Part shown: piece after piece, positions 3,928 through 21,387 of the stretch
How the letters are laid out: each line of letters opens with the position of its first letter
Position numbering within the stretch: position 1 is the stretch's first letter
The notes under the pieces: generated by a model
Database searches by the model: none
What the model saw: only the letters and a program-made list of their open reading frames with translations
Told to the model about the DNA's origin: nothing
Made by a program: the position numbers and the translations under genes
Source of the DNA: a virus
Strand: one strand, 5' to 3'
IMG/VR virus record: IMGVR_UViG_3300046411_000423
Location: 1 to 23,069 of that record
Length of the DNA: 23,069 bases

Positions 3928-3929
3928 AA

Positions 3930-4094: not shown

Positions 4095-4125
4095 ACTATT
4101 ACAATAAGTTTTTTAATTTTTTGTT
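4095..4125 (-). promoter_or_regulatory. Bipartite promoter-like element, copy 5 (before 54-residue gene)
   Basis: On the minus strand AACAAA lies at -31 to -26 and TTATTGTAATAGT runs directly into ATG at 4094. Spacing is identical to four other copies. The upstream half lies within the end of the 36-residue gene, so here the element is partly coding. Reads as the head of the fibre block. Confidence 0.5.
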
Positions 4126-4209
4126 ATTCTTTGTCAAGTCTATAATGTATTTTTTTAATCTTTGCACATTATAAGCTTTTGGTCTGTATTTTTTCTTTAT
4201 AATACCCAT
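4099..4209 (-). CDS. Small Lys-rich basic protein, 36 residues
   Basis: ATG at 4209 overlaps the end of the connector gene by 13 bases in another frame. The product MGIIKKKYRPKAYNVQRLKK, continuing YIIDLTKNNKKLKNLL, has about one third Lys/Arg and an amphipathic C-terminal helix. It fills most of the space between connector and the 54-residue gene, ending TAA-TAG. Its strong charge could suit nucleic-acid or capsid-interior binding, but that is a guess from composition. No family recognised. The gene is short, so it could be fortuitous, though the codons look normal and the coupling is tight. Confidence 0.55.
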   Translation of the reverse strand: MGIIKKKYRPKAYNVQRLKKYIIDLTKNNKKLKNLL

Positions 4210-4697
4210 CCCTCGAAACTAGCATCTTTATCAGGATATACATCCTCGTTAGAGTTACTGTTGTATTCTGGAAAACTGTCATTATTAAAGCTCATATAGC
4301 TAATAAATCTGTCCGTGTAGTATTGAGCTAGATTTCTTTCTTTTTCAATTAGAAAATCTATTTCATTTTTATCTACATTAGAAGCGTTCTCGCTTGTATG
4401 CTTGTAGACTCCTTTATTAGCTACTGTATAGGCAGCAAAAGGAAGGTATTCTACCATAGCCCAATGAATTAGCATTGGTTTTACATAATCACTAACTAAA
4501 CTTAAATAACTTCCAGTTAAGCTACTAGAAATTATATCTGCTTCTATTTTGTTTAGTAAGTCTGTACCTAAATAGTTTTGTATATGAATGTCTTGTGCGA
4601 TCTTGATAAACTGAATAAACTTATCAGTATCAACATTGCCATTCATTGCTGTGAACTTTACTATATCTTTTCTACTAATTAATAATGCTTGTGCCAT
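4197..4697 (-). CDS. Head-tail connector / head completion protein
   Basis: 166 residues, mainly helical: MAQALLISRKDIVKFTAMNG, then DTDKFIQFIKIAQDIHIQNYLGTDLLNKIEADI, a long helix with VKPMLIHWAMVEYLPFAAYTV, and an acidic Asn/Ser-rich tail. The pattern of K-x-x-Q-x-x-x-(I/L)-x-x-x-LG-x-x-L-x-x-x-(I/L) followed by a conserved LIHW/VEYLP helix is the signature I know from Bacteroidetes phage head-tail connectors (DUF6712-like, analogous to HK97 gp6). It follows the portal gene by two bases, the usual position for a protein docking on the portal ring. Named by family pattern plus context. Confidence 0.75.
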   Translation of the reverse strand: MAQALLISRKDIVKFTAMNGNVDTDKFIQFIKIAQDIHIQNYLGTDLLNKIEADIISSSLTGSYLSLVSDYVKPMLIHWAMVEYLPFAAYTVANKGVYKHTSENASNVDKNEIDFLIEKERNLAQYYTDRFISYMSFNNDSFPEYNSNSNEDVYPDKDASFEGWVL

Positions 4698-4699
4698 TT

Positions 4700-6454
4700 T
4701 TATCTAGGGTTTTTATATCCGTTATTTGGCATATCTATTGGTCTAGTTGCCACTTCTTTCTCGTTTTTTTCTGGTTTAAAGCCTTCTCTTCTTGCTTTAT
4801 TCACTGATACTTCAGATCTAGGATTTTTAGGATCTGGATTTACGCCTTCTTTTTTACTCATGTAAGTTTTACGCATCCAGTAGTGATGACAATTTGCACC
4901 ACCTTTATATAACCATATATCATAAGTTTTAACTGAACCTTTAGGTCCAAAACCAGCATTTACTTCTTCAGATGACATTTTATCTATATCTTCTTTTCTA
5001 TAAATCTTTTTTGCTGATACCATTTTTTGACAAAAATCTCTAGAATTATCGCTTACTTTTAAAGGTGCATATTGATACCTTACTCTAAACCTTAAACCCT
5101 CTTCGTTTTCTCCATCTTGTTCTGATTTAGCATTTGGTCTTGCAGTACCTGTGCTTGCAAGATTAATCATTTTGTCTAATGTTGTTTCTTGCTCATAATC
5201 TACAGGTCTCTCATCAACTATCTCCCATCCTTCATCTAACATTTCTTGTTCATCTTGTCCTGCTTCAATTAATTCATCAGCAATAGAAGGAGGTGTTTTA
5301 TAGTCAATGTCTGAACTTAACTTTACTCCTGTCTCTTCTTCTCTTGATTCATCTGTTACTGCGTTATCCGTATCAATAAATGCAAGCGGCTGAAGCGTTT
5401 TAAAGTATAAATTAAGGCTTATCTCGTTCACAGCGAGTATAGAATCCATACAGCTAATTAAAAGCTCTTGATAAGGCTTTATTGTAACGTTGTCAAATAA
5501 CAAAGAAGCTGTCTTAATTTCATCAGAGTTTGATCCTAGTCCATTATTTTCTGTTCTTATACCTAAAAGCAATGGTGATGTTACTCTGTGACCTATAATT
5601 AGCTTATTTGCACATTCTGTAGATAAATACTGATAATGTGCTGGTGCATCATTTAAAGGTACGTCATCTATTGTTGTTTTGCTTTCTGCATTGTTGTTAA
5701 ATGCTATAATTACTTTTTCTCCTCTTGCTCCTGTAAGTTTATTCATTACATCTGACTTAACTTGCATTTGCTTTTCTCTATCAGGCACCCCATTGTTAAA
5801 ATTCACAACTTTAGTTCCTGAAAAACCGTTTTGTACATCATTAATTAAATAGTCTGATATTTCTGATTCTAACTCTGCATATGCTAAAGCTCCTTGATAA
5901 TCTACTGGACAATAATAATCATATCCACTTACATATCTCTTTACAACTTTAATTTCTGGTTCTTTACCATTACCAAATCCAAATGCTGCTATTCTTTTAG
6001 GTTTACTATTTGCTTTTATCTTGGTCCAGTCATGAAAATAGTAATAAGCTTCAATTTCTCCGTCATCATTACATTTTTCTGCTCTTAATGTTTGTCTTGG
6101 AAAGTGTTCTGCTTTTACTACTCTGTTGTCTTGGTATAAAACTTGAAAACTACCTTCTCCTAATAATTTAAGATCTAGAATTACGTTTCTTAAATCTTGA
6201 TCTGGAAAAATAGATCTCATTGCTGCATATTCATCTGGCTTTTGTGAGCTGTCTGTTGCATCAATACCTTTTCCATATACTAATTGCGATATTCCTTGAA
6301 TAATTGCATTGTTTGTTGCAGAATTAATAAATAACTTAATTAAATAAGAATAATAATCATTGTTCTCTCCATAATTAACCCAATCCTTATGTTTATCTTC
6401 TGATATTTTAGGTCTATTATATTCTGATAAGTTTACTATGTGTAGATTGTCCAT
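4700..6454 (-). CDS. Portal protein with C-terminal extension
   Basis: 584 residues. Residues 1 to about 370 form the portal core: WVNYGENNDYYSYLIKLFIN, then ATNNAIIQGISQLVYGKGID (the classic entry helix), an LLGEGSFQVLY strand, QTLRAEK, a clip/stem region with LTGARGEKVIIAFNNN, and GHRVTSPLLLGIR with NNGLGSNSDEI. Such proteins form the dodecameric DNA gate at one capsid vertex. An acidic linker (about 375-430) leads to a basic domain (about 450-584) with RVRYQYAPLKVSDNSRDFC, a GFGPKGSVKTYDIWLYKGG segment and an NCHHYWMRKTYM motif whose Cys and His residues might bind metal. I have seen this C-terminal domain in portal or minor head proteins of Bacteroidetes phages. The gene follows a 115-residue structural gene and precedes the connector, but lies downstream of the capsid gene, unlike lambda or HK97. 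Confidence 0.88.
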   Translation of the reverse strand: MDNLHIVNLSEYNRPKISEDKHKDWVNYGENNDYYSYLIKLFINSATNNAIIQGISQLVYGKGIDATDSSQKPDEYAAMRSIFPDQDLRNVILDLKLLGEGSFQVLYQDNRVVKAEHFPRQTLRAEKCNDDGEIEAYYYFHDWTKIKANSKPKRIAAFGFGNGKEPEIKVVKRYVSGYDYYCPVDYQGALAYAELESEISDYLINDVQNGFSGTKVVNFNNGVPDREKQMQVKSDVMNKLTGARGEKVIIAFNNNAESKTTIDDVPLNDAPAHYQYLSTECANKLIIGHRVTSPLLLGIRTENNGLGSNSDEIKTASLLFDNVTIKPYQELLISCMDSILAVNEISLNLYFKTLQPLAFIDTDNAVTDESREEETGVKLSSDIDYKTPPSIADELIEAGQDEQEMLDEGWEIVDERPVDYEQETTLDKMINLASTGTARPNAKSEQDGENEEGLRFRVRYQYAPLKVSDNSRDFCQKMVSAKKIYRKEDIDKMSSEEVNAGFGPKGSVKTYDIWLYKGGANCHHYWMRKTYMSKKEGVNPDPKNPRSEVSVNKARREGFKPEKNEKEVATRPIDMPNNGYKNPR

Positions 6455-6455
6455 A

Positions 6456-6803
6456 TTATAGTACTATAAAATCGTTTGTTGTTTCTTGTGGTTCATACTC
6501 GTTATTATTTACTGAATAATTTGTTACAGTTTGGTTTGTACAGAATATTTTATCTTTAAATATAACATTGCCACTCTTTTTAATTGTTAACGTGTAAAAC
6601 GTATCTTCTACTAACGTAAATACATCTGAATATTGATAATAATAATCATTTAATGTAAATGCATTTGTATCTTCATCATATACTGACTTGTTTGTAGTCT
6701 CATTTATAATTGATATGTTATAAATGTTACTGCCAGATGCTTCATATTCTCTTGGAATAAAATTTATCGTTTGAGAACTAGAACTGTTCTGTAATATTAT
6801 CAT
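6456..6803 (-). CDS. Small beta-rich structural protein upstream of portal
   Basis: 115 residues starting MIILQNSSSSQTINFIPREY. Alternating polar and aromatic residues (IYNISIINETTNKSVYDED, DYYYQYSDVFTLVEDTFYTL, then TIKKSGNVIFKDKIFCTNQ) predict a small beta sandwich, and there is no enzyme motif. The first 20 residues, with IILQNS and a FIPREY element, resemble short structural proteins of flavobacterial phages whose role is unassigned. The gene is preceded by a terminator and one of the five promoter-like elements, and its stop is one base from the portal start, so it heads the portal operon. A minor capsid or decoration role is possible. Confidence 0.6.
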   Translation of the reverse strand: MIILQNSSSSQTINFIPREYEASGSNIYNISIINETTNKSVYDEDTNAFTLNDYYYQYSDVFTLVEDTFYTLTIKKSGNVIFKDKIFCTNQTVTNYSVNNNEYEPQETTNDFIVL

Positions 6804-6834
6804 ACTAATACAATAAAATAAATGTTTTTTTGTT
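6804..6834 (-). promoter_or_regulatory. Bipartite promoter-like element, copy 4 (portal block)
   Basis: AACAAA at -31 to -26 and TTATTGTATTAGT directly before ATG at 6803, the same spacing as the other four copies. It lies 13 bases beyond the terminator that closes the tail-tube gene, the arrangement expected of a new transcription start. Confidence 0.55.
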
Positions 6835-6847
6835 AATTATTAAGCAT

Positions 6848-6873
6848 AAAAAAAGGTGCCACAAAAGCACCTT
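6848..6873 (-). terminator. Intrinsic terminator after tail tube gene
   Basis: On the minus strand a 7-bp stem AAGGTGC/GCACCTT with a 7-base loop is followed by a run of T (A at 6848-6854 on the plus strand). Separates the tail tube gene from the portal block. Confidence 0.85.
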
Positions 6874-6895
6874 CTTTATCTAATTTAAAGGATTA

Positions 6896-7450
6896 TTAAG
6901 AGTTACTTCCTTCAGTTGGAGTAGCAAACCCAGCATTAGTTAATGCAGTATCTACATCTGCAGCTGATTCTATAAAGTTTGCTGGAACTTTTTCCTGTGC
7001 AGTGAACGTTAATGTATAACCTGAAAGGTCACCCATTGCTGCTCCTGTTACTATTGTTCCGCCACTTACATCCGCTCCGTTTTCTAACCCCATTATAAAT
7101 AGGTTTTCATTATAATCTTCAACAACAATGTGAGGTCTACCATAAGCTAATAATTTTAACTCTTTGTTGTCCTCTTTTGTAAGTTTTTTAAGTGTAAGAT
7201 TTAATGTTTGCTCAAAGAAAGTTGTTCCGTTTTCTCTAGAAGCATTAATTGTTTGTTCAAATGAAGAATTACCTTTTACTTCGTATTTAAAACTAGCAAC
7301 TGATGTTCCTACGCTATCTACTACATCTGTATCAGTAGAATCGTAAGTAACAGCTGTATAGTCACCGAAATCAGAAATATAAATATTTTTAATTCCACCT
7401 ACTACGTCTTTACAAGGTTCTTTTCTTCCTTTAGTTAAATCACAAGCCAT
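6896..7450 (-). CDS. Probable major tail tube protein
   Basis: 184 residues: MACDLTKGRKEPCKDVVGGI, then KNIYISDFGDYTAV, a SFKYEVKGNSSFEQTINASR strand pair, ENGTTFFEQTLNLTLKKLTK, the short helix EDNKELKLLAYG and a C-terminal GAAMGDLSGYTLTFTAQEKV. This is the beta-sandwich layout with one helix typical of tail tube subunits, and the ENGTT-x-FEQ-x-(L/V)-x-(L/V) and DLSGY-x-LTF-x-(A/G)-x-E motifs are familiar from Bacteroidetes phage tube or structural proteins. It is the first gene after the major capsid gene, with a terminator on both sides, as suits a highly expressed virion protein. Tube identity is inferred from fold pattern and position; a head decoration protein is the alternative. Confidence 0.68.
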   Translation of the reverse strand: MACDLTKGRKEPCKDVVGGIKNIYISDFGDYTAVTYDSTDTDVVDSVGTSVASFKYEVKGNSSFEQTINASRENGTTFFEQTLNLTLKKLTKEDNKELKLLAYGRPHIVVEDYNENLFIMGLENGADVSGGTIVTGAAMGDLSGYTLTFTAQEKVPANFIESAADVDTALTNAGFATPTEGSNS

Positions 7451-7465
7451 ATTATTTTTATTTTT

Positions 7466-7503
7466 AAAAAAAAAGGGTGGTAGAATACACCACCTACCCT
7501 TTT
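7466..7503 (-). terminator. Intrinsic terminator after major capsid gene
   Basis: Minus-strand hairpin AAAAGGGT-A-GGT paired with ACC-ACCCTTTT (one bulged A), loop of about 10 bases, ending in a T tract (A at 7466-7474 on the plus strand). No promoter-like element follows it before the tail tube gene, so partial readthrough probably sets the capsid-to-tube ratio. Confidence 0.8.
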
Positions 7504-7522
7504 CTTATGTTAATATATTCTA

Positions 7523-8464
7523 TTACGAGTAAAGAACAATGTCTCCACCGATTGCGTGCTGAATACCAGCAGTAAATCTCATTACAATTCTTACATTTTG
7601 AGAACCATCTAGATCAGCCATATCTAATACTTTTACTTCGTTGTGGTCTGATAATAAACCTGTACCGAAGAATAAGTTTGATTTTTCAGCTGCTACTGCG
7701 TTATCACTTGGTAAACCTTGTGCTAATGCTATTTGGATTCCATCAAACTGAAGACCTTGACCCATTGAATACCATTGAGTACCTTGTCCGTTTGTACCGT
7801 TAGCTCCTAAACCACCAGTTGCAAATCCACCTAATGCTCTAACGTAGTTTCTGTACATGTTAGATGGTAAGTAGATAGTTAAATCTTCTGCACCATAGAC
7901 GGCTGAAGGAACGGCATCTGCAATTTTACCTAATTCTTCGATTATATTCGCGCTCGTAGAAGTCGTACCTGTTACGTCATTTACATCAGTATCTGCTCCT
8001 AATGTAGTTACAAATCCATCAAATTCTCCATCTGTAGCGTTAGTACCGTTCCAGATATTGTTTTCGATTTTTTGTGCAACTTTAGCTGATACATGTCCGA
8101 TTAAGAAATCAGAGAATGATGGAGGTAAAGTTTCGTTAATTGCAGAATATCCCATTTGAACTGCTTCCCAGTCTTGAACGTAGTCTTTTTTACAAAGCTC
8201 TAAATTCACTTGGAATTCTTCTGGTTGTAATATTCTTTCTGTTAAAGTTAATACGTCTGCTTGTCCTGAAAAGTCACATGCTCCGTTTTTAACAATACTT
8301 GTAGAAGCAACTTTTTTCATTACTTCTTTGTATTTAACGTTTGGCTTAACTGTAATTAAGTCATTCGCTAGTGTGTTTCCACTTAAAAGAGCTGCCGAGA
8401 CATATTTGCCTGCAAATTCTCCTGCATAAGTAGAAGTTATTGGTGTTACTGTACTATTTGCCAT
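7523..8464 (-). CDS. Major capsid protein (HK97-fold expected)
   Basis: 313 residues beginning MANSTVTPITSTYAGEFAGK. Visible elements: an N-terminal arm with AALLSGNTLANDLITVKPNV, a strand with ILQPEEFQVNLELCKKDYVQ, the spine-helix region FSDFLIGHVSAKVAQKIENN followed by IWNGTNATDGEFDGF, an ADAVPSAVYGAEDLTIYLPS segment with MYRNYVRALGG, and a C-terminal VRIVMRFTAGIQHAIGGDIV domain. This matches the length and organisation of flavobacterial phage capsid proteins. It directly follows a scaffold-like gene and precedes a terminator and the tail tube gene. No separate N-terminal scaffold (delta) domain is fused, consistent with the separate scaffold gene. It assembles the procapsid with the scaffold, protease and portal. 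Confidence 0.88.
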   Translation of the reverse strand: MANSTVTPITSTYAGEFAGKYVSAALLSGNTLANDLITVKPNVKYKEVMKKVASTSIVKNGACDFSGQADVLTLTERILQPEEFQVNLELCKKDYVQDWEAVQMGYSAINETLPPSFSDFLIGHVSAKVAQKIENNIWNGTNATDGEFDGFVTTLGADTDVNDVTGTTSTSANIIEELGKIADAVPSAVYGAEDLTIYLPSNMYRNYVRALGGFATGGLGANGTNGQGTQWYSMGQGLQFDGIQIALAQGLPSDNAVAAEKSNLFFGTGLLSDHNEVKVLDMADLDGSQNVRIVMRFTAGIQHAIGGDIVLYS

Positions 8465-8475
8465 TTTTATTAATA

Positions 8476-9126
8476 TTAATTAAAATTTGATATTGTTTTC
8501 ATTACACGATCTAAAGTGTTCATAGGTCTGTTAGCTTGACGAATGTTTAATTGTGTTTTCTCTTCGCTTTCAGGATTATGTTTTACCTTTTCAACTTTAG
8601 ATAAATTTTCTTTTGCAGGTTCTTCAGATAATTCTTCTTTAACCTCTTCAGAAGCCATTTCCTCGTCTTTTTTACCGTAACCTAATTCTTCAATCATAGT
8701 TACAATATCTTCAACGGCTTTTTTAACCTCTGCTAACTCTTCTTTTGTAGCGTAATCTGCTGCAGCTTCAACTTCTTCCACTTCAGCTTCGCCCATAGAA
8801 GCAATGATACCTTCTTGCTCAACAGTTAATTTTAAACCATCATCAAGAGTGTATTCTCCAACTGGTAGAGCAACTTTTTCGTCTTCAGTAACGATAAAAA
8901 TTTCATTACCAGCCTCAAAAGCTTCTGCTTCTACTGTTGTACCATTTTCAAGCTGCATAGTTGCTAGCTCTACTTTTGTTTCCTCTACTTTGTCTTCCGC
9001 TAATTCAGTAGTTTCTTCTTTAGTTTCTTCAAGATTAATATCTTGCTCCTCTAAATTTATTTCTACATCTGCAGCGTTCATGCCAAGTAGGTCTTTTACT
9101 TGTTTTAACATTTCTGTCGCTTTCAT
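8476..9126 (-). CDS. Acidic scaffold-like protein
   Basis: 216 residues, extremely rich in Glu, Lys and Ala. MKATEMLKQVKDLLGMNAAD is followed by long acidic segments (INLEEQDINLEETKEETTEL), a small beta region around VEAEAFEAGNEIFIVTEDEK, a coiled-coil helix at about residues 125-150 (YATKEELAEVKKAVEDIVTM), more acidic low-complexity sequence, and a basic C-terminal tip (NRPMNTLDRVMKTISNF). Internal scaffold proteins typically have an acidic coiled-coil rod and a short basic C-terminal capsid-binding segment. The position immediately before the capsid gene agrees. It should line the procapsid and leave or be cleaved by the protease. A promoter-like element lies at its start. Confidence 0.75.
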   Translation of the reverse strand: MKATEMLKQVKDLLGMNAADVEINLEEQDINLEETKEETTELAEDKVEETKVELATMQLENGTTVEAEAFEAGNEIFIVTEDEKVALPVGEYTLDDGLKLTVEQEGIIASMGEAEVEEVEAAADYATKEELAEVKKAVEDIVTMIEELGYGKKDEEMASEEVKEELSEEPAKENLSKVEKVKHNPESEEKTQLNIRQANRPMNTLDRVMKTISNFN

Positions 9127-9157
9127 AGTATTACAATTAAATTAATTTGTGTTTGTT
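9127..9157 (-). promoter_or_regulatory. Bipartite promoter-like element, copy 3 (scaffold-capsid block)
   Basis: AACAAA at -31 to -26 and TAATTGTAATACT directly before ATG at 9126; same spacing as the other copies. Would serve scaffold and major capsid, the most abundant products. Confidence 0.5.
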
Positions 9158-9163
9158 ATATTT

Positions 9164-9643
9164 TTAAGATGCTTTTGCTTGAATTATAAACCATTCAGTA
9201 CCATCACACCATACCGTTATACCTTCATACGCTTTATTAATTCTATAGTGAGTTGTTTCACCATCTAATGTTTGTCCACTTCTTGGTGTTAAATCAGCGT
9301 GTGTGTTTGTTGTATATGAACTGTCTGTTATTAGTCTTATTTGTCTATTTAAGTTTTTTGTTGCTGTTGCATCTGGTAAAGTTATCTCTATTGTATCACT
9401 TCCACCTGACCAGCTTAACTTAATCATCTCTGCATTGTCATAAGCAGAATCATTTAAATCTATATCACTACCTCCAGATATAACCGTAATGTCAGTTGAC
9501 ACTAAATGTGTAACTATTAGATTCTCTAAATTAGATATTGTAGTTTTTTTAGTTTCTGATGAATGAACAATAGCTATTACTTCTGATCCATCTAAATCTG
9601 AAGCTGATACTAAACTTAATTCTGATATTTTTTTATTTGCCAT
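9164..9643 (-). CDS. Small structural protein with KISEL N-terminus
   Basis: 159 residues starting MANKKISELSLVSASDLDGS, then EVIAIVHSSETKKTTISNLE. This KISEL-x(n)-DLDG-x-E-x-(I/V)-x-(I/V)-x-x-x-x-T-(K/T)-K-x-(S/T)-IS-x-L opening is common in phage fibre, decoration and other virion proteins, where it forms a small anchoring domain. The remainder is beta-rich: IDLNDSAYDNAEMIKLSWSG, NLNRQIRLITDSSYTT and a C-terminal YEGITVWCDGTEWFIIQAKA strand pair resembling C-terminal trimeric fibre tips. It lies in the head block between the Cys-rich protein and the scaffold, so a capsid decoration or head fibre is the best guess. A misplaced tail fibre is possible. Confidence 0.65.
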   Translation of the reverse strand: MANKKISELSLVSASDLDGSEVIAIVHSSETKKTTISNLENLIVTHLVSTDITVISGGSDIDLNDSAYDNAEMIKLSWSGGSDTIEITLPDATATKNLNRQIRLITDSSYTTNTHADLTPRSGQTLDGETTHYRINKAYEGITVWCDGTEWFIIQAKAS

Positions 9644-9646
9644 TTT

Positions 9647-9847
9647 TTATAATTCTATTTTACTATTATTTTCTTGTAATATATAATCTCCATTTTCTTG
9701 CAACAAAAATCCTATTGGTCCTGTAAGGTTACCTATTCCTTGTCTCATATAATCTTGATCATTGCAACAATCTATTGAATATGTATTACCATCTCTACAT
9801 AAACATGCTCTTTTATTAGAACTAGGTACGTTATATCTTCTTCTCAT
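9647..9847 (-). CDS. Small Cys-rich structural-block protein, 66 residues
   Basis: 66 residues. MRRRYNVPSSNKRACLCRDG and NTYSIDCCNDQDYMRQGIGN give four Cys (C-x-C and CC) close together, which could bind a metal or form disulfides. A C-terminal repeat, LLQENGDYILQEN, follows. Such short ACLC...CC...QGIG proteins recur in Bacteroidetes phage structural regions, without an assigned function as far as I know. The ATG overlaps the protease stop by one base (TAATG), so it is translationally coupled, and the next start follows after three bases. Confidence 0.65.
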   Translation of the reverse strand: MRRRYNVPSSNKRACLCRDGNTYSIDCCNDQDYMRQGIGNLTGPIGFLLQENGDYILQENNSKIEL

Positions 9848-11088: not shown

Positions 11089-11119
11089 ATTATTACAATA
11101 TTGTTTTTATTATTTTGTT
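11089..11119 (-). promoter_or_regulatory. Bipartite promoter-like element, copy 2 (protease block)
   Basis: AACAAA at -31 to -26 and ATATTGTAATAAT directly before ATG at 11088. It exactly fills the gap between the tape-measure stop (11120) and the protease start, with nothing to spare. Confidence 0.5.
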
Positions 11120-12832: not shown

Positions 12833-12972
12833 TATTTGTTCGTTTTAAATTGTTCGTATGCTTCTTTTATTGTTTCTGGCATTTTATTTTTACCGAGTGC
12901 TATATCTATATACTTGCCAGATATGTTCTCTTGCTTTGCTAATCTTAATAATTCTAGTACGTTTCCTAACAT
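12832..12972 (-). CDS. Small helical protein upstream of tape measure, 46 residues
   Basis: ATG at 12972 overlaps the end of the glycosyltransferase gene, and the stop overlaps the tape-measure ATG (TAATG), so three genes are coupled. Product: MLGNVLELLRLAKQENISGK, then YIDIALGKNKMPETIKEAYE and a short basic end. It forms two or three amphipathic helices with no Cys and no signal peptide. Its position just before the tape measure is where chaperone-type proteins usually lie, so a small tape-measure partner is conceivable, but the sequence gives no family. Conventional length cut-offs would miss it. Confidence 0.7.
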   Translation of the reverse strand: MLGNVLELLRLAKQENISGKYIDIALGKNKMPETIKEAYEQFKTNK

Positions 12973-13850: not shown

Positions 13851-13851
13851 A

Positions 13852-16800
13852 TTATGGACAAGATGGACAACTTACTGTTGATAATGTGTTTGATGTTGAA
13901 TTCCAATAATAATAAGTAGAGAAATCTGCAGTAAAATATTGATCTGCACCTAACAAGCTACTACAAGTATCATTAGAATAAATTACTGATGCTGTAGATA
14001 TATCGTTGCTATCCATATATACTGTTCTAGATACTGTTACATTACAACATACATCTAATGCGCTTGTTGACTTATACAATGTTTGAGAACCACAAGTTAT
14101 TGTTGTTGTAGTAGTTGTAGTAGTTGTTGTAATACAAGAACCTGTAATCGTACCGTATGTTGATGGACTTGTAACTAATGCTGTACCGTTTATGTCATAA
14201 CAATTTGCACCATCCGTAGATATTGTGATGTCTGTGTTACCTACTTGGTAAGCTGAATCTAATTGAACATATGTAGAAAAACCATCACTTTGTCTTTCCA
14301 CTACAAATACATTATCTGGTGCTGGTGTTGTAGTTGTAGGAGGTTGAGTTGTGGTTGTTGTTGTACCTGTACAATCTTCACAATTATCATAACCTATATA
14401 ATCATAAGCTGGTTGACCACCAACACAAGACTGTTGTGAAACCCAAGGAGTGCTTTGATCTCCACTTCCTACTGTTGGATTTTTATAACATTCTCCTGTT
14501 GCTACATTCTTAATTACTGCTGGAAACCCACTTGTTGAATTATTACCTACTGTAAAGGTTTCATCTAAACCTGTTGCACAATCTACATATTCTCTAAATA
14601 CTGTTAATGTTGGTTTTGTTGGAATATTGTTACAAGGATCCGTTGTAGGTTTTGGGGGACAAGTACTAACATTCTCCCAAACTTGCGCTGTGTTTGGTTC
14701 ATAATATCTATAATTAACTAGATCTGTATAGAATCCTTCTGGAGCTGTATTGCTTGTTCCAATATTAGCAGCACTTGTATACATGTTATCATTACTTGTA
14801 GCTGATGATAGTGTTTTATTGTTGTCAAAATAATAATAACCAAATACTCCTTGTGAATCATCACAATATTGAGTTAGAGAATTCCATCCTGTACCTAAAA
14901 AGTATAATCCATTCGCATCAATACAATTTACACACACACTAAAACTAGTACCATTCCAATATCTTCTATCTGTATTGTCGTTATCTAATGAATAATATCC
15001 TGTAGGTGCTGCAGTATTACAATTAGAGTAAGTAAACAAATTAGTTACACTACACCAATTACTGTTAGTTTGTGATAAACCAGCTCCATTTACATAATAG
15101 AAGTTTTTAGATTGTTCATTTTCACAAACATCATTAGATGTAGAATATCTTAAATAAAATACTGATTTAGTTGCTAAACAAGGATCTGTTGTTGTTCCTT
15201 GACCTGTACAAGAATTACATCCAGTTCCTTCTCCATTACCAACTGTAATACCATTATTACTTGCCCAATCAGTTTCAAAAGCTGTTGCAGATGTATAGTA
15301 ACATAAGTTATTTATCTTTATATATGTTCCTGTTGTACTGTTTCCTACTGTAAATGTATCTCTTGATCTTACATAAACTGTTTGACCTGATACTGTTTGC
15401 CCTGAACATCCAGTTACAACATAATAATTATAAACTATTAACTGTATTGTTGCTGCAGTAAAGTCTGTGGTTACTGTTTGGCTTGTTGTAAATGTTCCTC
15501 CTGCATTGTTTACTGTAGGAGCTCCACTAACCCATTCAAATCCTGAATTTAAGCTAATGGTTGTTTGGAAATTAAATACTGTTCCTGCGTTTTGTGTTTT
15601 TACTGTACCATTTAAATCACCTCCTAGTGTGAATCCATCATTAACATTTGGAAACCCTGAAGCTGTAATATTACTTGTGTCTACTGCTAATGTTACATCT
15701 ATAAGACTTTGTGTAGTCCATATAACTGTATGTGTATCGGTTGCTGTTATTGTACCATCTGTTGCTGTACAAGTATATGTGTATGTACCTGCACTTGTTT
15801 CTGTAAACGTTATAATTTGTGTTGATCCACTAGCAGAACCACCTGACCAAGAATAACTTGTTGGTGTAAATCCAGAAGGTAAAGCTGTTAATGTTAAATT
15901 ATTATTTACTGTTTTCTGTGTAGGTCCACTAATAGTCAAGAATTGTGATGTTGCTTGAACTGTACCTGATAAAGTTGTATTAACTGTTAAATTAGAAGTT
16001 CCAACTGTACCTTGTGCATTTTGTATTGTTGGTCCTGATGTAAATTGATAACCACTATTTGCAGTTACATTTGTATTAAATGAATATGTATCTCCTTCTT
16101 GTAATAATTGCGTATCACCTGTTTGGTCCCCTGTTATATTATATCCTGCTGCTGGTCCTGTAATATTATTGATTACATTTAAAGTAATTGTATATGTTTT
16201 TGGTGTCCACAGCACTATATGTGTATCTGTAAACTCTGCACTATCATCACTATCTGTAGCTACACAGGTATATGTAACGTTTCCTGTTGTTGCGTTTGTT
16301 ATTGTTATGCTAGATGTTGTTAATCCTGCTGCATTTCCTCCAGACCATAAATAACTAGCTGTTCCTATAAAGTTATTAGCTGTAGCTGTTAATGTTATAT
16401 CTTCTGTTTGTTGTTGGCTTGTTAATCCAGATATAACTAAACTTCTACCTACATCACAAGTTTTATCTGCAGTAGGTGTTAGACTATCTACAGTACAGAA
16501 CGTAGAATCTGCTGTACATTCAGTACACTCATCTTCGTCTGAAGTTGTAGTTGTTGAAATTGGAGTTGATCCTCCTACACTTATTGTTATGCCGTTTATT
16601 AATTCTAATTTAGATTTTCCTGTGCTAAAATCTGTTTCTATTTGATTTATAGTGTAGTTTCTGTCTGCTATAGCTATAGTATCAGCAAGAATAAACTCTT
16701 GCAACATCTTTAATGGTAAATAAGCCTCTACAGTAGTTAGTCTTCTGTTGTTTTGAAATACTTGTGAAATGTAACTTTGATAATATTGTGCAAACAATGT

Positions 16801-18636
16801 TTTATCAAATGCGTTTGTGTTTGTATACTCGTTTATCTCATTTCTAAAATTATTAGATATTTCACTAATACTGCTATCAATATCCACGCTATTAGACGGA
16901 ATAAAATAACTTGTTATATCAGCATATGTGCCAGCGTTCTCTGTTTCTAAAAATCTAATTGCTGTTGCTGATGTTTGATTATATGAATAAAATAATAAAG
17001 GCTTACCATAATAAGGTTCGTTATTATCATCTACAAACCATCCTACCTGTGGTTCTATTGCTGTACTACCATTATACATTCTTTCATACTTCATATGCTC
17101 AAAAGGAGCGATTACTGAATATATTTCTGGATTTGCATCATAATAATCATCACCTGAATAACTTTCTGTTGCCCAAGATGTATTGTTTATTTGTTCGTGT
17201 TGCTTTGCTAGTTTTGTTTCTAATCCTTCGAATTTGAACTCAACTTCTTTATAAGGTAGTGCTACATCAACTGTACTTTTAGTTACATCTACATTATTTG
17301 TAATATCCCAAACTGTAGTAGAATCAGAATAATATTCATTTAATGTTTTAACTATTATTGTTCCATTTTCTGTATATGCTGTTAGATTAAACATTTTAAA
17401 CAATCCAGTCAAAAAGTCTATTACTTTCATCTCTGGCATTTGCTCACTTATAATAAATGATCTTGTGTTGTTAAAAGTAAATGTACTTGTTAAAGGATAT
17501 GCAGCTGCACTATCAGGATAATATGTAGGATCTAAATCCCATTGTGTGTTCGTAGATAAAGTAAAAGATGTTTCAGCTGAATTTATAAATACAGTATATG
17601 TACCATTACTCAAATAACCATTTAAAGTTATTGATGTTCCGCTTATCACTCTTTGATCAAATGGTTGTCCATCTTTTCTTATTATAACTGTTCCATCAAT
17701 ACTTGTTGTTGATTCTATAGTTAAAGAGTATTGTATTGAGCCTGATGTTACGTTTACTACTTGTAATCTATCTGACTCACTTATTACTTGTGGAATTTCT
17801 CCTGCTCTATCTATAGTAAATCCTGTTACTTGTTTTGTTACTGCTGTTTCTTCAAAAGCTTTACCTTTTTTTCTATGTAGCCACAAATACAAACCATAAT
17901 AAGCACTATTAGTCGTGTTAAAGAAGTCATTACTAAAAGTTAAACCATATTTATCTTCTATAGCTCTTATAATAGCATCTACTCTTATAGCGTATTTTAA
18001 TTCTTCGTAATAAACACCTTGATGATTAGTTCCTGATGGATATAAGTTACCACCTAACGCATCTGGATATACAGCTGTTGTAGAAGCTTCATAATAAAGT
18101 CTTGTAGTGTGTGATATTAATGGTGCTATTATTCCTTGTGGATAGCTAATTGTAGACGCATCTGATCTTGTGTATGTTTTGTTAAGACCACTTTCTAATG
18201 CTGTTTTTACTTCAGAAGCTGTATATGATGAATCAAAAGCAGTTAAATCTAAAGCACTTAAATCATCATCACCTAATAAATCATTTAGGTTAATAGTGTT
18301 TCCAAAGAATGTTATTCTGTATGTATTAGGTATTCCGTCTTGTAAATCTACACCATCTAATTTTATCTTACCTGTTTTAAAAGGTCTGCTGTTAAGTTCT
18401 ATTGTTGAATCTTTTTTTAATCTTGCATCAAAACCATCTGTAATAGAATAATTATAATAGTGTTGAAATATCTTGTTGTTTGTTTTAGAAGCTGGTATAT
18501 TAAAAGTTCTTGTAAAATCTACAAATATTTTAGATATATCTTTTACATTTTGAATTGACTGAATTATGCTTACAGATTCATCATCAAACAAATCTACTCT
18601 TGTTCCTTCTATATATAACTGCAAGTATGCTTTCAT
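13852..18636 (-). CDS. Giant tail protein with Ig-like and Cys-rich repeats (tail hub/tip adhesin)
   Basis: 1594 residues. Residues 1 to about 705 look like a tail hub or baseplate protein: MKAYLQLYIEGTRVDLFDDE, DISKIFVDFTRTFNIPASKT, a DGFDARLKKDSTIELNSRPF segment, MPEMKVIDFLTGLFKMFNLT and LPLKMLQEFILADTIAIADR with a KLELINGI end. A Cys linker (about 705-725) leads to two tandem units of about 165 residues (about 732-897 and 898-1062); each has a Cys-containing Ig-like part ending TDTH-x-V-x-W and a second beta domain with GYQF/GFEW. Residues about 1070-1594 alternate two Cys-rich modules joined by Thr/Pro linkers, including a run of ten Thr near 1503-1512, and the protein ends CPSCP. The N-terminal part would attach to the tail; the rest should display outward and bind host. 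The next gene is a glycosyltransferase. Confidence 0.78.
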   Translation of the reverse strand: MKAYLQLYIEGTRVDLFDDESVSIIQSIQNVKDISKIFVDFTRTFNIPASKTNNKIFQHYYNYSITDGFDARLKKDSTIELNSRPFKTGKIKLDGVDLQDGIPNTYRITFFGNTINLNDLLGDDDLSALDLTAFDSSYTASEVKTALESGLNKTYTRSDASTISYPQGIIAPLISHTTRLYYEASTTAVYPDALGGNLYPSGTNHQGVYYEELKYAIRVDAIIRAIEDKYGLTFSNDFFNTTNSAYYGLYLWLHRKKGKAFEETAVTKQVTGFTIDRAGEIPQVISESDRLQVVNVTSGSIQYSLTIESTTSIDGTVIIRKDGQPFDQRVISGTSITLNGYLSNGTYTVFINSAETSFTLSTNTQWDLDPTYYPDSAAAYPLTSTFTFNNTRSFIISEQMPEMKVIDFLTGLFKMFNLTAYTENGTIIVKTLNEYYSDSTTVWDITNNVDVTKSTVDVALPYKEVEFKFEGLETKLAKQHEQINNTSWATESYSGDDYYDANPEIYSVIAPFEHMKYERMYNGSTAIEPQVGWFVDDNNEPYYGKPLLFYSYNQTSATAIRFLETENAGTYADITSYFIPSNSVDIDSSISEISNNFRNEINEYTNTNAFDKTLFAQYYQSYISQVFQNNRRLTTVEAYLPLKMLQEFILADTIAIADRNYTINQIETDFSTGKSKLELINGITISVGGSTPISTTTTSDEDECTECTADSTFCTVDSLTPTADKTCDVGRSLVISGLTSQQQTEDITLTATANNFIGTASYLWSGGNAAGLTTSSITITNATTGNVTYTCVATDSDDSAEFTDTHIVLWTPKTYTITLNVINNITGPAAGYNITGDQTGDTQLLQEGDTYSFNTNVTANSGYQFTSGPTIQNAQGTVGTSNLTVNTTLSGTVQATSQFLTISGPTQKTVNNNLTLTALPSGFTPTSYSWSGGSASGSTQIITFTETSAGTYTYTCTATDGTITATDTHTVIWTTQSLIDVTLAVDTSNITASGFPNVNDGFTLGGDLNGTVKTQNAGTVFNFQTTISLNSGFEWVSGAPTVNNAGGTFTTSQTVTTDFTAATIQLIVYNYYVVTGCSGQTVSGQTVYVRSRDTFTVGNSTTGTYIKINNLCYYTSATAFETDWASNNGITVGNGEGTGCNSCTGQGTTTDPCLATKSVFYLRYSTSNDVCENEQSKNFYYVNGAGLSQTNSNWCSVTNLFTYSNCNTAAPTGYYSLDNDNTDRRYWNGTSFSVCVNCIDANGLYFLGTGWNSLTQYCDDSQGVFGYYYFDNNKTLSSATSNDNMYTSAANIGTSNTAPEGFYTDLVNYRYYEPNTAQVWENVSTCPPKPTTDPCNNIPTKPTLTVFREYVDCATGLDETFTVGNNSTSGFPAVIKNVATGECYKNPTVGSGDQSTPWVSQQSCVGGQPAYDYIGYDNCEDCTGTTTTTTQPPTTTTPAPDNVFVVERQSDGFSTYVQLDSAYQVGNTDITISTDGANCYDINGTALVTSPSTYGTITGSCITTTTTTTTTTITCGSQTLYKSTSALDVCCNVTVSRTVYMDSNDISTASVIYSNDTCSSLLGADQYFTADFSTYYYWNSTSNTLSTVSCPSCP
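14101..14130 (-). repeat. Poly-threonine codon microsatellite
   Basis: Ten consecutive Thr codons (mixed ACA and ACT) in the giant tail protein. The tract separates two Cys-rich modules. Near-repetitive codons make length variation by slippage possible. Confidence 0.8.
14318..14371 (-). repeat. Thr/Pro-rich mucin-like linker
   Basis: Encodes TGTTTTTTQPPTTTTPAP, a mucin-like linker between Cys-rich modules of the giant tail protein; Thr next to Pro is the usual setting for O-glycosylation in other systems. Confidence 0.7.
15440..16440 (-). repeat. Tandem Ig-like double-domain units
   Basis: Two in-frame units of about 165 codons, the boundary near 15940. Paired landmarks are LVISGLTSQQQ with LTISGPTQKTV, SYLWSGGNAAG with SYSWSGGSASG, VTYTCVATD with YTYTCTATD, TDTHIVLWT with TDTHTVIWT, and GYQFTSGPTIQNAQGT with GFEWVSGAPTVNNAGGT. 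Clear internal duplication at the protein level. Confidence 0.8.
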
Positions 18637-19571
18637 TATCTTACTCTATCTATATGCTCGTGAGCGTGTTCAGCTTCTAATGTGTAATTAATTAGTTTAT
18701 CATTAACTTTTGTTTTTATTGTTAATGAATTTGATACTATATCTATTGGATGATATTCTACACCCATTTTCATCCACACTTGTTCTGACAACATTAGTTG
18801 TTTCATTGGCTCATTCATTCCTTCGTCTATAAAACCTGTATTTAATGTCATTCTTTCTTGTCCTGATTTTTTTAGAGTTCTATATTGATGTGACGTTACA
18901 GAATATGTACCTGTAGAAGATATATTGCTGTTTTTATATTTTTGTGATGTTGTTGTTAAAGTTTCTACACTTTTTTTATCAAAATAAATATCTTGTAAAG
19001 CTCCATACTTGTTTACAAATGTCACTTTCATAGGCATATACTTTGAACAAGGTATTCTGTTTATTGTTATTGTTACTGGTGGTGAACCTACAGCTAATGA
19101 TGTTGTACTTGCTGTAAATGAATTATATACTATTTGTCCTGCTGATAAAACTGGTATAAATCCTGATTCTCCTTCTGGTATATAAATAGTTGTATTGTCT
19201 TGCATTAAACAAGATCCAGTAGAACAAAAGTTTTTTGTATAAGATGTGTTATAATAATCCCAATATCCATCAAAGCCATTATAAGTAAATGTTACTGGTG
19301 TTCCAGTAGTTCCTCCTGTTGCGTTAGTTGATAAATACCAAGTTATCTCTCCTGCTATAGTTACTTTTTGACTTTGATAACTTCCACCATAAGTAATGTC
19401 TAAATAGTCTCTTGCTAACTCTGCTATTTCAAATGTTACCGCATTTGTTGGTGTGTCTTTTATAATTGTATATCTCAATGTTCCATCAATCTCTAATTCA
19501 AGTTTTGCTGATTGTGCACCTGACTGTGTGTGATATTCATAATAAGGACTTCTTAATAATATATTTGCCAT
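18636..19571 (-). CDS. Distal-tail-like structural protein
   Basis: 311 residues beginning MANILLRSPYYEYHTQSGAQ. Beta-rich: AKLELEIDGTLRYTIIKDTP, VTFEIAELARDYLDITYGGS, a two-Cys loop NFCSTGSCLMQ, MPMKVTFVNKYGALQDIYFD with KKSVETL, and TLNTGFIDEGMNEPMKQLML with SEQVWMKMG near residue 260. The VTF-x-N-x-YGALQD-x-(Y/W)-F element and the final GFIDE-(G/N)-x-NEP-x-x-(Q/E)-L-x-LSE helix are familiar from Bacteroidetes phage tail genes next to the hub. The stop shares one base with the start of the giant tail protein. It probably forms the ring joining the tube to the tip. The distal-tail assignment rests on context. Confidence 0.6.
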   Translation of the reverse strand: MANILLRSPYYEYHTQSGAQSAKLELEIDGTLRYTIIKDTPTNAVTFEIAELARDYLDITYGGSYQSQKVTIAGEITWYLSTNATGGTTGTPVTFTYNGFDGYWDYYNTSYTKNFCSTGSCLMQDNTTIYIPEGESGFIPVLSAGQIVYNSFTASTTSLAVGSPPVTITINRIPCSKYMPMKVTFVNKYGALQDIYFDKKSVETLTTTSQKYKNSNISSTGTYSVTSHQYRTLKKSGQERMTLNTGFIDEGMNEPMKQLMLSEQVWMKMGVEYHPIDIVSNSLTIKTKVNDKLINYTLEAEHAHEHIDRVR

Positions 19572-19574
19572 GTT

Positions 19575-20105
19575 CTATTGTTTTATTGTATAATCTAAAA
19601 ATTCTTCTATATCTAATCCGTATGCTTCTAATAATTCCTGTGGTAATCTTTTAAATCCTTTCTCAAAAGGTTTTGTAAAAAATAAGCTTGCTTTTATTCC
19701 TTTATTCCATACTGATCTAGATATTACGTATGCTGTTGATTCATAACTTGTAAACCTTCCTTTAGCATCTCTAAATTGAAATCTTCTTGCTTCTACCCAC
19801 TTTCTAATTCCACCAGATAATCCACCTTTCTTGCCTGTACCAGTTCCAAACTTAAATGGACTATTAGTTGATTCTGGATATGTGCTTGTTGCTCCTTTAA
19901 CCCCTTGATCTTGGAACTTACCATAATCTTCCATCTCAAACTTTAACCTAAATGAATTAGGCATAACATCCACTATACCTTTTAGAGAATTATAAAGCTG
20001 TTTAGAAACATTCTTATTCTTTCTAGTTAGATTAGATCTAGACTGTTGAATTACATAATCCTTAAATGCTTCTAATGCTTTTCTTGTGTTCTCGTTGTTT
20101 AGCAT
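19575..20105 (-). CDS. HK97 gp10-like neck / tail completion protein
   Basis: 176 residues. N-terminal helix NTRKALEAFKDYVIQQSRSN, then basic LTRKNKNVSKQLYNSLKGIV, a strand FRLKFEMEDYGKFQDQGVKG, the Gly-rich loop KFGTGTGKKGGLSGGIRKWV, and a helix/strand end with TAYVISRSVWNKGIKASLFF and TKPFEKGF. The Y-x-x-F-x-x-x-GVKG, (Y/R)KWV and G-(I/T)-(K/P)-x-x-x-F motifs match gp10-type minor tail or head-tail joining proteins (YGxxxExG in HK97). It overlaps the tail-terminator gene by seven bases and sits in the tail block. A head-tail connector role is the alternative. Confidence 0.72.
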   Translation of the reverse strand: MLNNENTRKALEAFKDYVIQQSRSNLTRKNKNVSKQLYNSLKGIVDVMPNSFRLKFEMEDYGKFQDQGVKGATSTYPESTNSPFKFGTGTGKKGGLSGGIRKWVEARRFQFRDAKGRFTSYESTAYVISRSVWNKGIKASLFFTKPFEKGFKRLPQELLEAYGLDIEEFLDYTIKQ

Positions 20106-20554
20106 ATTGTCATATCGTTTTGTATCTGTACATCAAATGTTGCTACCCATCCTGCCAGCTTGTTTTCAAATCTATCTACAAAAGGCTCACATGCTACATC
20201 TGATTCTACTTGATACTTGTCTGTGTATAAGTCTCCTCTTTGTAGTAAGCTTACTAATCTATCTAAAACTCCTAGTTGTGTGTTTAGCACATCTTGCTCA
20301 TTGTCATTGCCTCTAAATAAGTCTGTTGTTTCTTCTTTGCTTATGTCTACAATATCCATACACATTACAGAAATATTAAATGTTAGCACTTTAGAATTTA
20401 TAGTACATTGATTTACCATCACGTGGGATAATGGAAATATAGTCTGTTTATTAAGATCTACATTATCAAAGCTTCCATATGAAACATTATTTACAAATGG
20501 TTCTGCTTCTAGTGTTTCCTTTATCTTGTTTGTTATGTTATAAAATCCTGTCAT
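20099..20554 (-). CDS. Tail terminator-like protein
   Basis: 151 residues: MTGFYNITNKIKETLEAEPF with VNNVSYGSFDNVDLNKQTIF (the helix plus strand opening of tail terminator proteins), PLSHVMVNQ, a hydrophobic strand LTFNISVMCMDIVD, a DVLNTQLGVLDRLVSLLQRG helix and a final WVATFDVQIQNDMTIC strand. The order matches gpU/HK97 gp10-neighbour tail terminators, which cap the tube and join it to the head. The start ATG overlaps the TGA of the -1 frame of the preceding chaperone (ATGA at 20551-20554), which couples it to the frameshifted product, not to the shorter frame-0 product ending 82 bases earlier. Confidence 0.7.
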   Translation of the reverse strand: MTGFYNITNKIKETLEAEPFVNNVSYGSFDNVDLNKQTIFPLSHVMVNQCTINSKVLTFNISVMCMDIVDISKEETTDLFRGNDNEQDVLNTQLGVLDRLVSLLQRGDLYTDKYQVESDVACEPFVDRFENKLAGWVATFDVQIQNDMTIC

Positions 20555-20811
20555 CTGGTTTTCTGTTTAATTAAATTTTTCTCTGTCTGTAATTTGTCTT
20601 GCTCATAAGCTAAATAGTATAATGATGAATGTACATTTAATTCACTGACAGATTCAAGTTTGGTTGCATCTCCTCCAGCCAATCTATATAACGAGTTATA
20701 CCATCCCCACTTCCTAGCAAATCCTCCCTCTGCTGAATAGTCATTCCCTTGATCGCCTCCTGATTCAAAGATTTCAGGATAGTTTTCAGTAATTCGTTCT
20801 TTAAATTGTAA
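20551..20811 (-). CDS. Tail assembly chaperone, -1 frame extension (programmed frameshift)
   Basis: 86 codons plus TGA in the -1 frame of the chaperone gene, entered after CTT-TTT-TTT at the T9 tract. The frame contains no ATG or GTG and only one TTG; an upstream in-frame TGA lies at 20839-20841, so it cannot be translated alone by an ordinary start. It encodes LQFKERITENYPEIFESGGD, then FARKWGWYNSLYRLAGGDAT with KLESVSELNVHSSLYYLAYE and QDKLQTEKN. The KWGWY-x-x-(L/I)-x-x-LA-x-GD-x-x-K-x-x-x-V pattern is familiar from short proteins following this gene in related phages. TGA overlaps the next ATG as ATGA. Joined to residues 1-163 of frame 0 it gives a 249-residue GT-like chaperone (20551-21299). 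An indel error in the homopolymer is the alternative. Confidence 0.78.
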   Translation of the reverse strand, partial: LQFKERITENYPEIFESGGDQGNDYSAEGGFARKWGWYNSLYRLAGGDATKLESVSELNVHSSLYYLAYEQDKLQTEKNLIKQKTR

Positions 20812-21299
20812 AAAAAAAGTATAGAACCCATAACTATATCAAGCGGCATCTGTTTATATTTTTCAGAATCTTCAGATCCTTTATAGTCTTCTATTATGTA
20901 TTTATCTTTTAATGTGTCTTTTATTGGTCTGTATAATACTGCCATTGCTTTATGCATGTTGCTCCAATCTCCTAGTGTAGTGTCTAAATCTATATACTCA
21001 CCTAGTGTTATTTTATCAAGATCTGGTACAAAACCATATCCAACACCATCCATTGTAAAAGTTGGTACAAGCTTTGCTTCTTTGCTAAAAAGTTCATTTA
21101 TAATCCTTACTATCTTCATTACGCTGTTATATTCTACTTTAATAACCTTCTGAAGATTAAGATTACAGAATATTTCTACAGTCTTATGTAATAGAAAATT
21201 AGAGTTCTGATTAGCCTCTGTATTTATCTTATGATACTTCTGGTATTGTTCAAGACTAATCTCTCTTAAAGATTCTGGTACTTGTATCTTTACTTTCAT
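20637..21299 (-). CDS. Tail assembly chaperone, frame-0 product
   Basis: 220 residues. MKVKIQVPESLREISLEQYQ with KYHKIN opens a mainly helical protein; an EIFCNLNLQKVIKVEYNSVM helix, TFTMDGVGYGFVPDLDKITL with GEYIDLD, a WSNMHKAMAVLYRPI motif and MPLDIVMGSILFF follow. The PESL-x-(E/D)-I-(S/T)-LEQYQK opening and the FVPDLDKI-x-GEYIDLD / M-x-K-x-MAVLYRPI blocks are features of a Bacteroidetes phage protein in this genomic position. Frame 0 continues 57 codons beyond the slippery tract and ends in EEMQPNLNLSVN. A -1 shift at the T9 tract (20810-20818) would instead make a 249-residue protein. This two-product layout is that of lambda G and GT, which guide the tape measure during tube assembly. 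A promoter-like element and a terminator lie directly upstream. Confidence 0.72.
   Translation of the reverse strand: MKVKIQVPESLREISLEQYQKYHKINTEANQNSNFLLHKTVEIFCNLNLQKVIKVEYNSVMKIVRIINELFSKEAKLVPTFTMDGVGYGFVPDLDKITLGEYIDLDTTLGDWSNMHKAMAVLYRPIKDTLKDKYIIEDYKGSEDSEKYKQMPLDIVMGSILFFYNLKNELLKTILKSLNQEAIKGMTIQQREDLLGSGDGITRYIDWLEEMQPNLNLSVN
20810..20818 (-). promoter_or_regulatory. Slippery T9 tract for -1 frameshift
   Basis: Frame-0 codons CTT-TTT-TTT-TAC contain the perfect heptamer T-TTT-TTT; both tRNAs can re-pair after a one-base backward shift. A nine-base homopolymer would also permit transcriptional slippage. Confidence 0.7.
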
Positions 21300-21330
21300 A
21301 TTATAACAATAAGTTATTCAGTTTTTTGTA
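21300..21330 (-). promoter_or_regulatory. Bipartite promoter-like element, copy 1 (tail block)
   Basis: TACAAA (one mismatch to AACAAA) at -31 to -26 and TTATTGTTATAAT directly before ATG at 21299. It begins one base after the terminator at 21332-21359, so transcription of the tail block probably starts here. Confidence 0.55.
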
Positions 21331-21359: not shown

Positions 21360-21387
21360 CAAACATAACTAATTAAAATGAAAAAGA

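Follow-up and report, generated by a model that had tools for sequence, protein, structure and literature searches.

The window analysed here, a virus record of 23,069 bases from IMG/VR, is a genomic fragment of a phage whose long open reading frames (ORFs) lie on the minus strand. Five operon heads on this strand carry the same exact bipartite element, WACAAA-N13-WATTGTWWTA-NN-ATG, in which WACAAA occupies positions -31 to -26, a 13-nt spacer follows, WATTGTWWTA occupies -12 to -3, and the ATG begins at +1. We consider these elements to be probable late promoters (at odds of roughly 80%) that depend on a phage sigma factor and give mostly leaderless mRNAs, where "late" reflects the gene content of the operons and the position of +1 at the ATG is a prediction from sequence. 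The original prediction, made from the letters of the window, had proposed a leaderless late promoter at these five sites, and all of them were recovered as exact minus-strand matches exactly where it had placed them.

Element 1 (21297–21330) heads a tail-type operon, with TACAAA at 21330–21325, the N13 spacer, TATTGTTATA at 21311–21302, and the ATG and predicted +1 at 21299. Element 2 (11086–11119; AACAAA at 11119–11114, TATTGTAATA at 11100–11091, ATG at 11088) precedes a protease-type operon, and element 3 (9124–9157; AACAAA at 9157–9152, AATTGTAATA at 9138–9129, ATG at 9126) a scaffold-like and virion-structural operon. Element 4 (6801–6834; AACAAA at 6834–6829, TATTGTATTA at 6815–6806, ATG at 6803) lies at the head of the portal operon. 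Element 5 (4092–4125; AACAAA at 4125–4120, again TATTGTAATA at 4106–4097, ATG at 4094) opens a fibre/baseplate-type module, whose genes have their PHROGs matches among tail fibre, baseplate, and virion structural proteins. Five minus-strand transcription units can be predicted from these heads: unit 1 at 11120–21299, outlined from ORFs and family matches; unit 2 at 9164–11088, with the protease-type gene and two small genes; unit 3 at 6896–9126, ending at a terminator at 6850–6876; unit 4 at 4197–6803, with a 115-aa gene, the portal gene, and a 166-aa gene; and unit 5 at 1–4094, continuing past the window edge. Matches to PHROGs families identify the portal gene (4700–6454), a virion structural gene (7523–8464), a protease-type region within 9847–11088 (413-aa gene), tape-measure and virion-structural regions within 11120–12832, a terminase large-subunit region within 22209–22577, and virion-structural or tail regions within 1–2994 and 3481–3927. 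The module names given to the five operons in the original prediction are thus borne out in part, but several genes match families of unknown function only. The portal protein is 36.5% identical to that of the Nonlabens phages P12024S and P12024L, which belong to Inhavirus, were isolated from seawater, and have Persicivirga as the host.

When up to three mismatches were allowed, the window contained six matches to the element, namely the five exact copies and a three-mismatch match at 12990–13023, and the pattern read backwards gave none. In 100 dinucleotide shuffles searched at the same tolerance, the mean was 1.06 matches and the largest number 4, so that no shuffle reached 6. Elements 1 and 4 directly follow intrinsic terminators on the minus strand (21337–21360 and 6850–6876), each a hairpin with a U-run. 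The claim that these two terminators are real was upheld: they fold at -14.2 kcal/mol (z = -4.03) and -13.7 kcal/mol (z = -4.12), and none of 200 shuffles was equally stable. The boxes had been said to occupy normal -33 and -7 promoter positions, which needs refining, as a 13-bp spacer and a box at -31 fit neither the standard -35/-10 nor the -33/-7 arrangement.

The element recurs far beyond the window. A pattern search of IMG/VR that included the ATG found at least 119 stretches with the N13 spacer, against 14 with N12 and 24 with N14; among the N13 matches listed, 19 of 80 rows carry two to four copies, while the N12 and N14 stretches have one match each. The 30 distinct contigs of at least 20 kb among the N13-matching stretches, thus chosen by the motif, form a set of 31 records together with the window. 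Without the ATG requirement, each of these records has one to six exact copies, all on a single strand per record, and the backwards pattern has no match in any of the 31. A second set of 80 loci was selected by a sigma-like gene described below and not by the motif. These loci contain 47 exact N13 copies on the strand of the sigma-like gene and no exact copy at any other spacer from 8 to 19 nt; at up to one mismatch, 62 N13 copies lie on that strand and one on the opposite strand. Twelve permuted-box controls over the same loci gave zero or one exact match.

The copies mark orthologous operon heads, as the scan of related phages confirmed. In ten near-complete relatives, they stand at the terS, tail, protease, scaffold, connector/portal, and fibre-like heads, and some of these phages have an additional small-gene head with a copy. 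Trained on exact sites from the near relatives, a position weight matrix recovers operon heads of the far group, and training on the far group recovers those of the near relatives; Markov-simulated sequence of twice the genome length gave 0–4 matches per run at score 11. One one-mismatch match, at 12704 in G002, is intragenic and probably due to chance. For sigma-selected loci, we counted orthologous upstream regions after removing rows whose alignment did not begin at the query start or that lay too close to a locus end, with identical regions counted once. Boxes with up to two mismatches were present in 15 of 16 distinct upstream regions of tail heads (with the usual 2-nt gap in 13 and a 4-nt gap in 2), 19 of 22 of terS heads, and 4/4, 1/1, and 4/7 of connector, protease, and fibre-type heads, respectively. 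The start codons of four of the 19 terS rows and three of the four fibre-type rows with boxes are mis-assigned, and the gaps in these rows are not real; in two of the four terS rows, the true gap is 25.

The boxes and the start codon can be separated. Where the ATG of a terS head is clear, it lies 23–25 nt after the box, which predicts a leader of 21–23 nt. Among 178 exact copies in the stretches found by the ATG-adjacent pattern (L001–L119), the ATG is at the usual place in 151 and elsewhere in 27, of which 16 are displaced by just 1 nt and others have the ATG at least 15 nt after the box; offsets in this set are biased toward leaderless copies by the way it was picked, a bias from which the sigma-selected loci are free. 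In L021, L022, and L046, the likely orthologs of the scaffold-like gene behind element 3 carry these boxes too, but their ATG comes 15 nt after the box instead of 2. The fusion of the element to the ATG thus stands for the five copies in the window but not always in relatives.

These displaced start codons bear on a reading of the boxes as mRNA features of a leadered transcript, that is, a Bacteroidetes Kozak-like context with an upstream A-rich enhancer for translation initiation. Leaderless copies indeed favour A at -3 (0.82) and -6 (0.80), and A at -3, -6, -12, and -13 favours initiation in Flavobacterium johnsoniae (PMC6847099). However, positions -12 and -13 of the element are mostly T, the spacing to AACAAA is exactly 13 nt, and the boxes are kept where the ATG lies 23–25 nt (terS) or 15 nt (some scaffold heads) after them and not 2 nt. 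Since the boxes persist at terS despite the displaced ATG, they would be part of a DNA promoter and not a translation signal, and we rejected the translational explanation, which we regard as highly unlikely.

The leadered copies also suggest where transcription starts. An earlier set of 36 leadered copies, about one third of them false two-mismatch sites, was replaced by a strict recount, which gave 14 distinct exact copies with the ATG at least 9 nt after the box; T is found at -1 in 12 and a purine at +1 in 12 of these, many of which are terS copies related by descent. In terS copies of the MAHGGK type at up to one mismatch, which are likewise related by descent, the two bases are T and G in 11 of 11. 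Since this pattern resembles a start site, +1 would fall on the A of the ATG in the other copies. If TATTGT is read as -12 to -7, its A falls at -11 and its last T at -7, the usual contacts of sigma factors. In most terS heads, the leader opens with a palindrome, TTGATTAATCAA, that spans the predicted start site (L204, about 4575–4603), with variants elsewhere; it is a possible operator or 5' hairpin at this leadered late operon.

The palindrome, which follows most terS copies, and the conserved bipartite form of the site would also suit an operator or another DNA-binding site (for a regulator, or with a role in packaging or replication) with which the true promoter overlaps. We consider this extremely unlikely, as the copies have one orientation per record and are located at operon heads, two of them directly after terminators, and the spacing of A(-11) and T(-7) to a purine at +1 suits a promoter.

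A candidate for the factor that reads these promoters lies outside the window, and a search for a phage sigma factor had been part of the original prediction. Scanning the 31 records for Sigma70_r2 gave matches in eight, one of them above the cut-off (G017), and all pointed to one ORF type of about 180–200 aa. A profile built from 24 members, which are 61–93% identical to the first member (hereafter clade A), finds this protein in 27 of the 31 records. The four records without it are the window, a fragment; G020; and G026 and G027, both of 21–23 kb. It is present in 19 of 20 records of at least 29.5 kb and in all 19 between 29.5 and 34 kb, and in none of 21 records behind the N12 and N14 matches. 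In relatives, the gene is located upstream of the terminase genes; for instance, G004 carries it at 6382–6921, before terS at 10457, with six motif copies at 10.4–30.4 kb. PHROG 1740, "RNA polymerase sigma factor", matches 16 of the 24 members, and Pfam Sigma70_r2 is matched above its curated cut-off by the G017 protein and by gp33 of P12024S, while the Sigma70_r4_2 match stays below its cut-off (11.4 of 25.7 bits). Foldseek comparison of an AlphaFold2 model with the PDB places extracytoplasmic function (ECF) sigmas at the top, with SigL at E = 4e-4 and SigH and SigE at E = 0.004–0.02; isolated sigma2 or sigma4 domains match the model at TM scores of 0.60–0.72 (by target) with E of 2–3. From this remote homology and predicted fold, we identify the conserved protein of about 180 aa as a probable ECF-like sigma factor.

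The clade A protein has at least 573 relatives in IMG/VR. In a tblastn search of 50,697 phage records, the G017 protein had no match at E = 1e-3 and the L204 protein none at E = 10, and gp33 was matched in P12024S and P12024L only. A search of genome contigs found one relative, 51% identical (L279, 1586–2107), on the contig CANHGM010000057.1 of a Bacteroidetes metagenome-assembled genome (MAG), which is possibly a phage contig. Because this sole genome-contig relative comes without the motif, the host group is drawn mainly from the homology with P12024S, which makes Flavobacteriia the likely host of the window phage.

Phage P12024S provides a second box and sigma pair (hereafter clade B). It has no copy of the window motif at up to one mismatch; its upstream regions, read by eye, have the layout AACAAA-N13/14-CGTTAATAWA-NN-ATG. 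The clade B box precedes the genes at 3031, 5412, 21280, 23961, 25201, and 26802, in two cases with a single mismatch. Across P12024S and five loci carrying the clade B sigma-like gene, which form groups of two and three close to each other, the N14 pattern has nine exact copies and 16 at up to one mismatch, while other spacers from 9 to 17 nt give 0–1 exact and 0–4 at up to one mismatch. A seventh, weaker copy is seen in P12024S (L125, 179) as AACACG-N14-CGTTACTATA-GT-ATG. Pairwise alignment of gp33 with the clade A profile covers 146 columns (probability 92, E = 6.4e-7), and one clade A member matches PHROG 31712, the family of gp33, at E = 1.7e-4; the homology of the two proteins rests on this profile alignment and the PHROG matches. 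The gp33 model is weaker (predicted local distance difference test, pLDDT, 62.2), with ECF sigmas listed first and none under E = 0.001. A clade B sigma-like gene is found in five of nine records with the clade B motif. The two boxes never occur together at up to one mismatch in 11 clade A and seven clade B sequences, and the two box/sigma pairs are mutually exclusive. The best reading of these pairs is that the late promoter co-diverged with its predicted sigma. As a further cousin, the temperate Cellulophaga phage phi46:1 was tried and set aside, as it matches neither sigma-like protein and has neither box.

In another reading, the host polymerase with a host sigma factor (sigma-A or a host ECF sigma), perhaps helped by a phage activator, would read the boxes, with the phage protein controlling something else and its co-occurrence due to shared ancestry. 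Binding by the phage protein is a prediction, related phages share genes by descent, and F. psychrophilum has seven ECF sigmas as well as promoters of a CGT-box class (PMC9723704), to which the CGT in the clade B boxes could be compared. On the other hand, the box is unlike TTTG/TAnnTTTG, and it changes together with the sigma subfamily. The Bacteroidetes downstream box TAnnTTTG occurs in none of the five window copies, and the claim that the boxes differ from that consensus thus stands. Candidate host-type elements, as read from a list, are found at a likely early gene instead: TAACTTTG or TACCTTTG, of the TAnnTTTG type, precedes a small gene in G004, G005, G013, and G007, and similar elements occur in G006, G009, G011, and G015. 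We consider recognition by a host sigma very unlikely. Of the two agents offered in the original prediction, a phage-modified polymerase or a phage factor, a phage factor, most simply a sigma encoded outside the window, is preferred to the modified polymerase. A search for the single-subunit RNA polymerase family PF00940 gave no match in 17 records and is uninformative, as the controls also gave none.

The host-type -7 element TAACTTTGGTGGG is located at 3794 in G004, 30406 in G005, 10889 in G013, and 10313 in G007. The small gene downstream, whose product begins MDDIRRLADKI..., is probably early, and TAACTTTGGTGGG is a candidate early promoter. TAnnTTTG is not enriched on the coding strand, with 12–25 occurrences in ten relatives against 19–37 on the other strand, and 13 against 13 in the window. 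One such element occupies 21360–21367 of the window (minus strand), just ahead of the element 1 terminator, and G004, G005, G006, and G013 have similar elements at the same place; a host promoter at 21360–21367 would yield only a very short RNA. As for Escherichia coli-type promoters (TTGACA-N16-18-TATAAT), the scan recovered none of the five elements, and its totals of 46 and 54 show no excess over the shuffle means of 54.1 and 63.3.

Comparative evidence, namely the orthologous heads and the exact spacing, favours late promoters that give leaderless mRNAs and are recognised by a phage factor. We propose that the five elements are the late promoters of a phage of about 32 kb, probably with a Flavobacteriia host, and that an ECF-like phage sigma of about 180 aa binds the host core RNA polymerase. 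Its C-terminal helix-turn-helix would recognise AACAAA at -31 to -26 and its N-terminal domain the TATTGTWWTA box at -12 to -3. The first transcribed base would be the A of the ATG, 7 nt downstream of the near-invariant T(-7), and the operons would yield mRNAs that are leaderless or have leaders of 1–2 nt, while the terS operon of relatives would use the same promoter with a 21–23-nt leader. Early genes, including the sigma gene itself, may be transcribed from host-type promoters, and accumulation of the sigma would then drive the switch from early to late expression.

Several observations weigh against this proposal. The records come from related phages, so the co-occurrence of motif and sigma-like gene could in part reflect common descent, and the pairing of box and sigma rests on two lineages. 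The assignment as a sigma factor is remote, resting on distant homology and a model of moderate confidence (pLDDT 73.9; predicted TM score 0.42): E = 0.01 is reached by two of the 24 members for Sigma70_r2 and three for Sigma70_r4_2, 11 match the YlxM-like helix-turn-helix family UPF0122, one of 117 Foldseek matches passes E = 0.001, and full-length TM scores for SigL, SigH, and SigE are 0.27–0.36. A sequence search of solved structures returned nothing relevant, only eight antibody or sybody chains, and an hmmsearch with either sigma profile misses the sigma-like protein of the other clade at E = 10. Motif and gene also come apart. At up to one mismatch, the motif is present in 39 of the 80 sigma-selected loci and in 29 of the 36 that reach 9 kb; the shortfall is probably due in part to fragments and looser copies. 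Other spacers in these loci yield 0–19 matches at this tolerance. G017 has a single site at up to one mismatch, and its tail and connector heads carry looser leaderless copies, such as ATTGTATATAT-ATG. G020, of 41.6 kb, has one motif match, probably due to chance, and no sigma-like gene; the 5.7-kb MAG contig with the 51%-identical protein has no motif; and four of the nine clade B motif records, of 4.1, 5.6, 16.5, and 38.1 kb, lack the clade B gene. Finally, A(-3) is also favourable for translation, and part of the box could do double duty.

Phage control of late transcription takes several forms. The late promoters of T4, which use gp55, are not known to have an upstream box, and Thermus phage P23-45 makes leaderless late mRNAs with the host sigma and phage regulators. 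The closest known system consists of gp36 of phiEco32, with tAATGTAtA, and gp47 of phage 7-11, with GTAAtg-16-aCTA, both phage sigmas acting at late heads (PMC8948821). According to that paper, each phage encodes a sigma with its own consensus at late genes (in phiEco32 also at middle genes), and these related phages have different sigma/promoter pairs at similar genome positions (PMC8948821), as the phages described here probably do. The 7-11 promoters are also bipartite, and the phiEco32 box resembles TATTGTAATA. They differ in their enterobacterial hosts and the spacer of 16 instead of 13, and the word "leaderless" is absent from the available text of the paper (PMC8948821). Independent acquisition of the two sigmas is proposed there (PMC8948821), whereas the two proteins here align by profile and share the upstream box.

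The consensus of Bacteroidetes sigma-A (TTTG/TAnnTTTG; PMC6847099) is likewise bipartite and has T(-12), A(-11), and T(-7) in its downstream box, but the phage box has no TTTG ending, and its partner is AACAAA at -31 with a 13-nt spacer. In Deinococcus-Thermus, a -10 motif directly before the start codon also leads to leaderless mRNA, although host RpoD and cellular genes are involved (PMC12340547). The late promoters of phage AR9 share a phage-specific consensus with AACA, AACA-(6N)-TA/G, but are read by a phage multisubunit RNA polymerase and give leaders of 26–491 nt (PMC5312081). Phage transcripts are described in the same paper as "often leaderless", which tempers any surprise here (PMC5312081); leaderless phage mRNAs themselves are already known. 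The novelty lies in the host group, in a promoter that is positioned on the start codon and has a 13-bp spacer, and in two related pairs with a common upstream box; among titles and abstract openings in the open-access literature (PMC), we found no description of this promoter or of P12024 transcription.

If the proposal is true, mostly leaderless late mRNAs would stand out in flavobacteria, where such messages are few: leaders exceed 10 nt on 87% of the predicted transcripts with a probable promoter in F. johnsoniae (PMC6847099), and leaderless messages make up 5.5% of the mRNAs in F. psychrophilum (PMC9723704). For a phage group that includes the IMG/VR relatives and the cultured cousins P12024S and P12024L, there is now a candidate sigma gene with a consensus for its promoters, about six operons that would form its regulon, and base-level predictions of where transcription starts. 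The two putative sigmas, which are related and share a -31 box but differ in the -10 box, may be useful for studying how sigma specificity evolves, in accord with the prediction that further phage sigma/promoter pairs await description (PMC8948821). More tentatively, and at somewhat less than even odds, the sigma may fix +1 on the start codon and thereby shift most virion operons to leaderless (5'-AUG) translation, which would couple a transcription switch to a translation switch; the leadered terS operon, with the palindrome at its start site, would be separately controlled, and the clade A and B pairs would represent naturally orthogonal sets that differ mainly through a rewritten -10 specificity.

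Apart from the promoters, the window encodes a 1,594-aa protein on the minus strand (13852–18636), residues 6–691 of which match phrog_38559, a family of unknown function.

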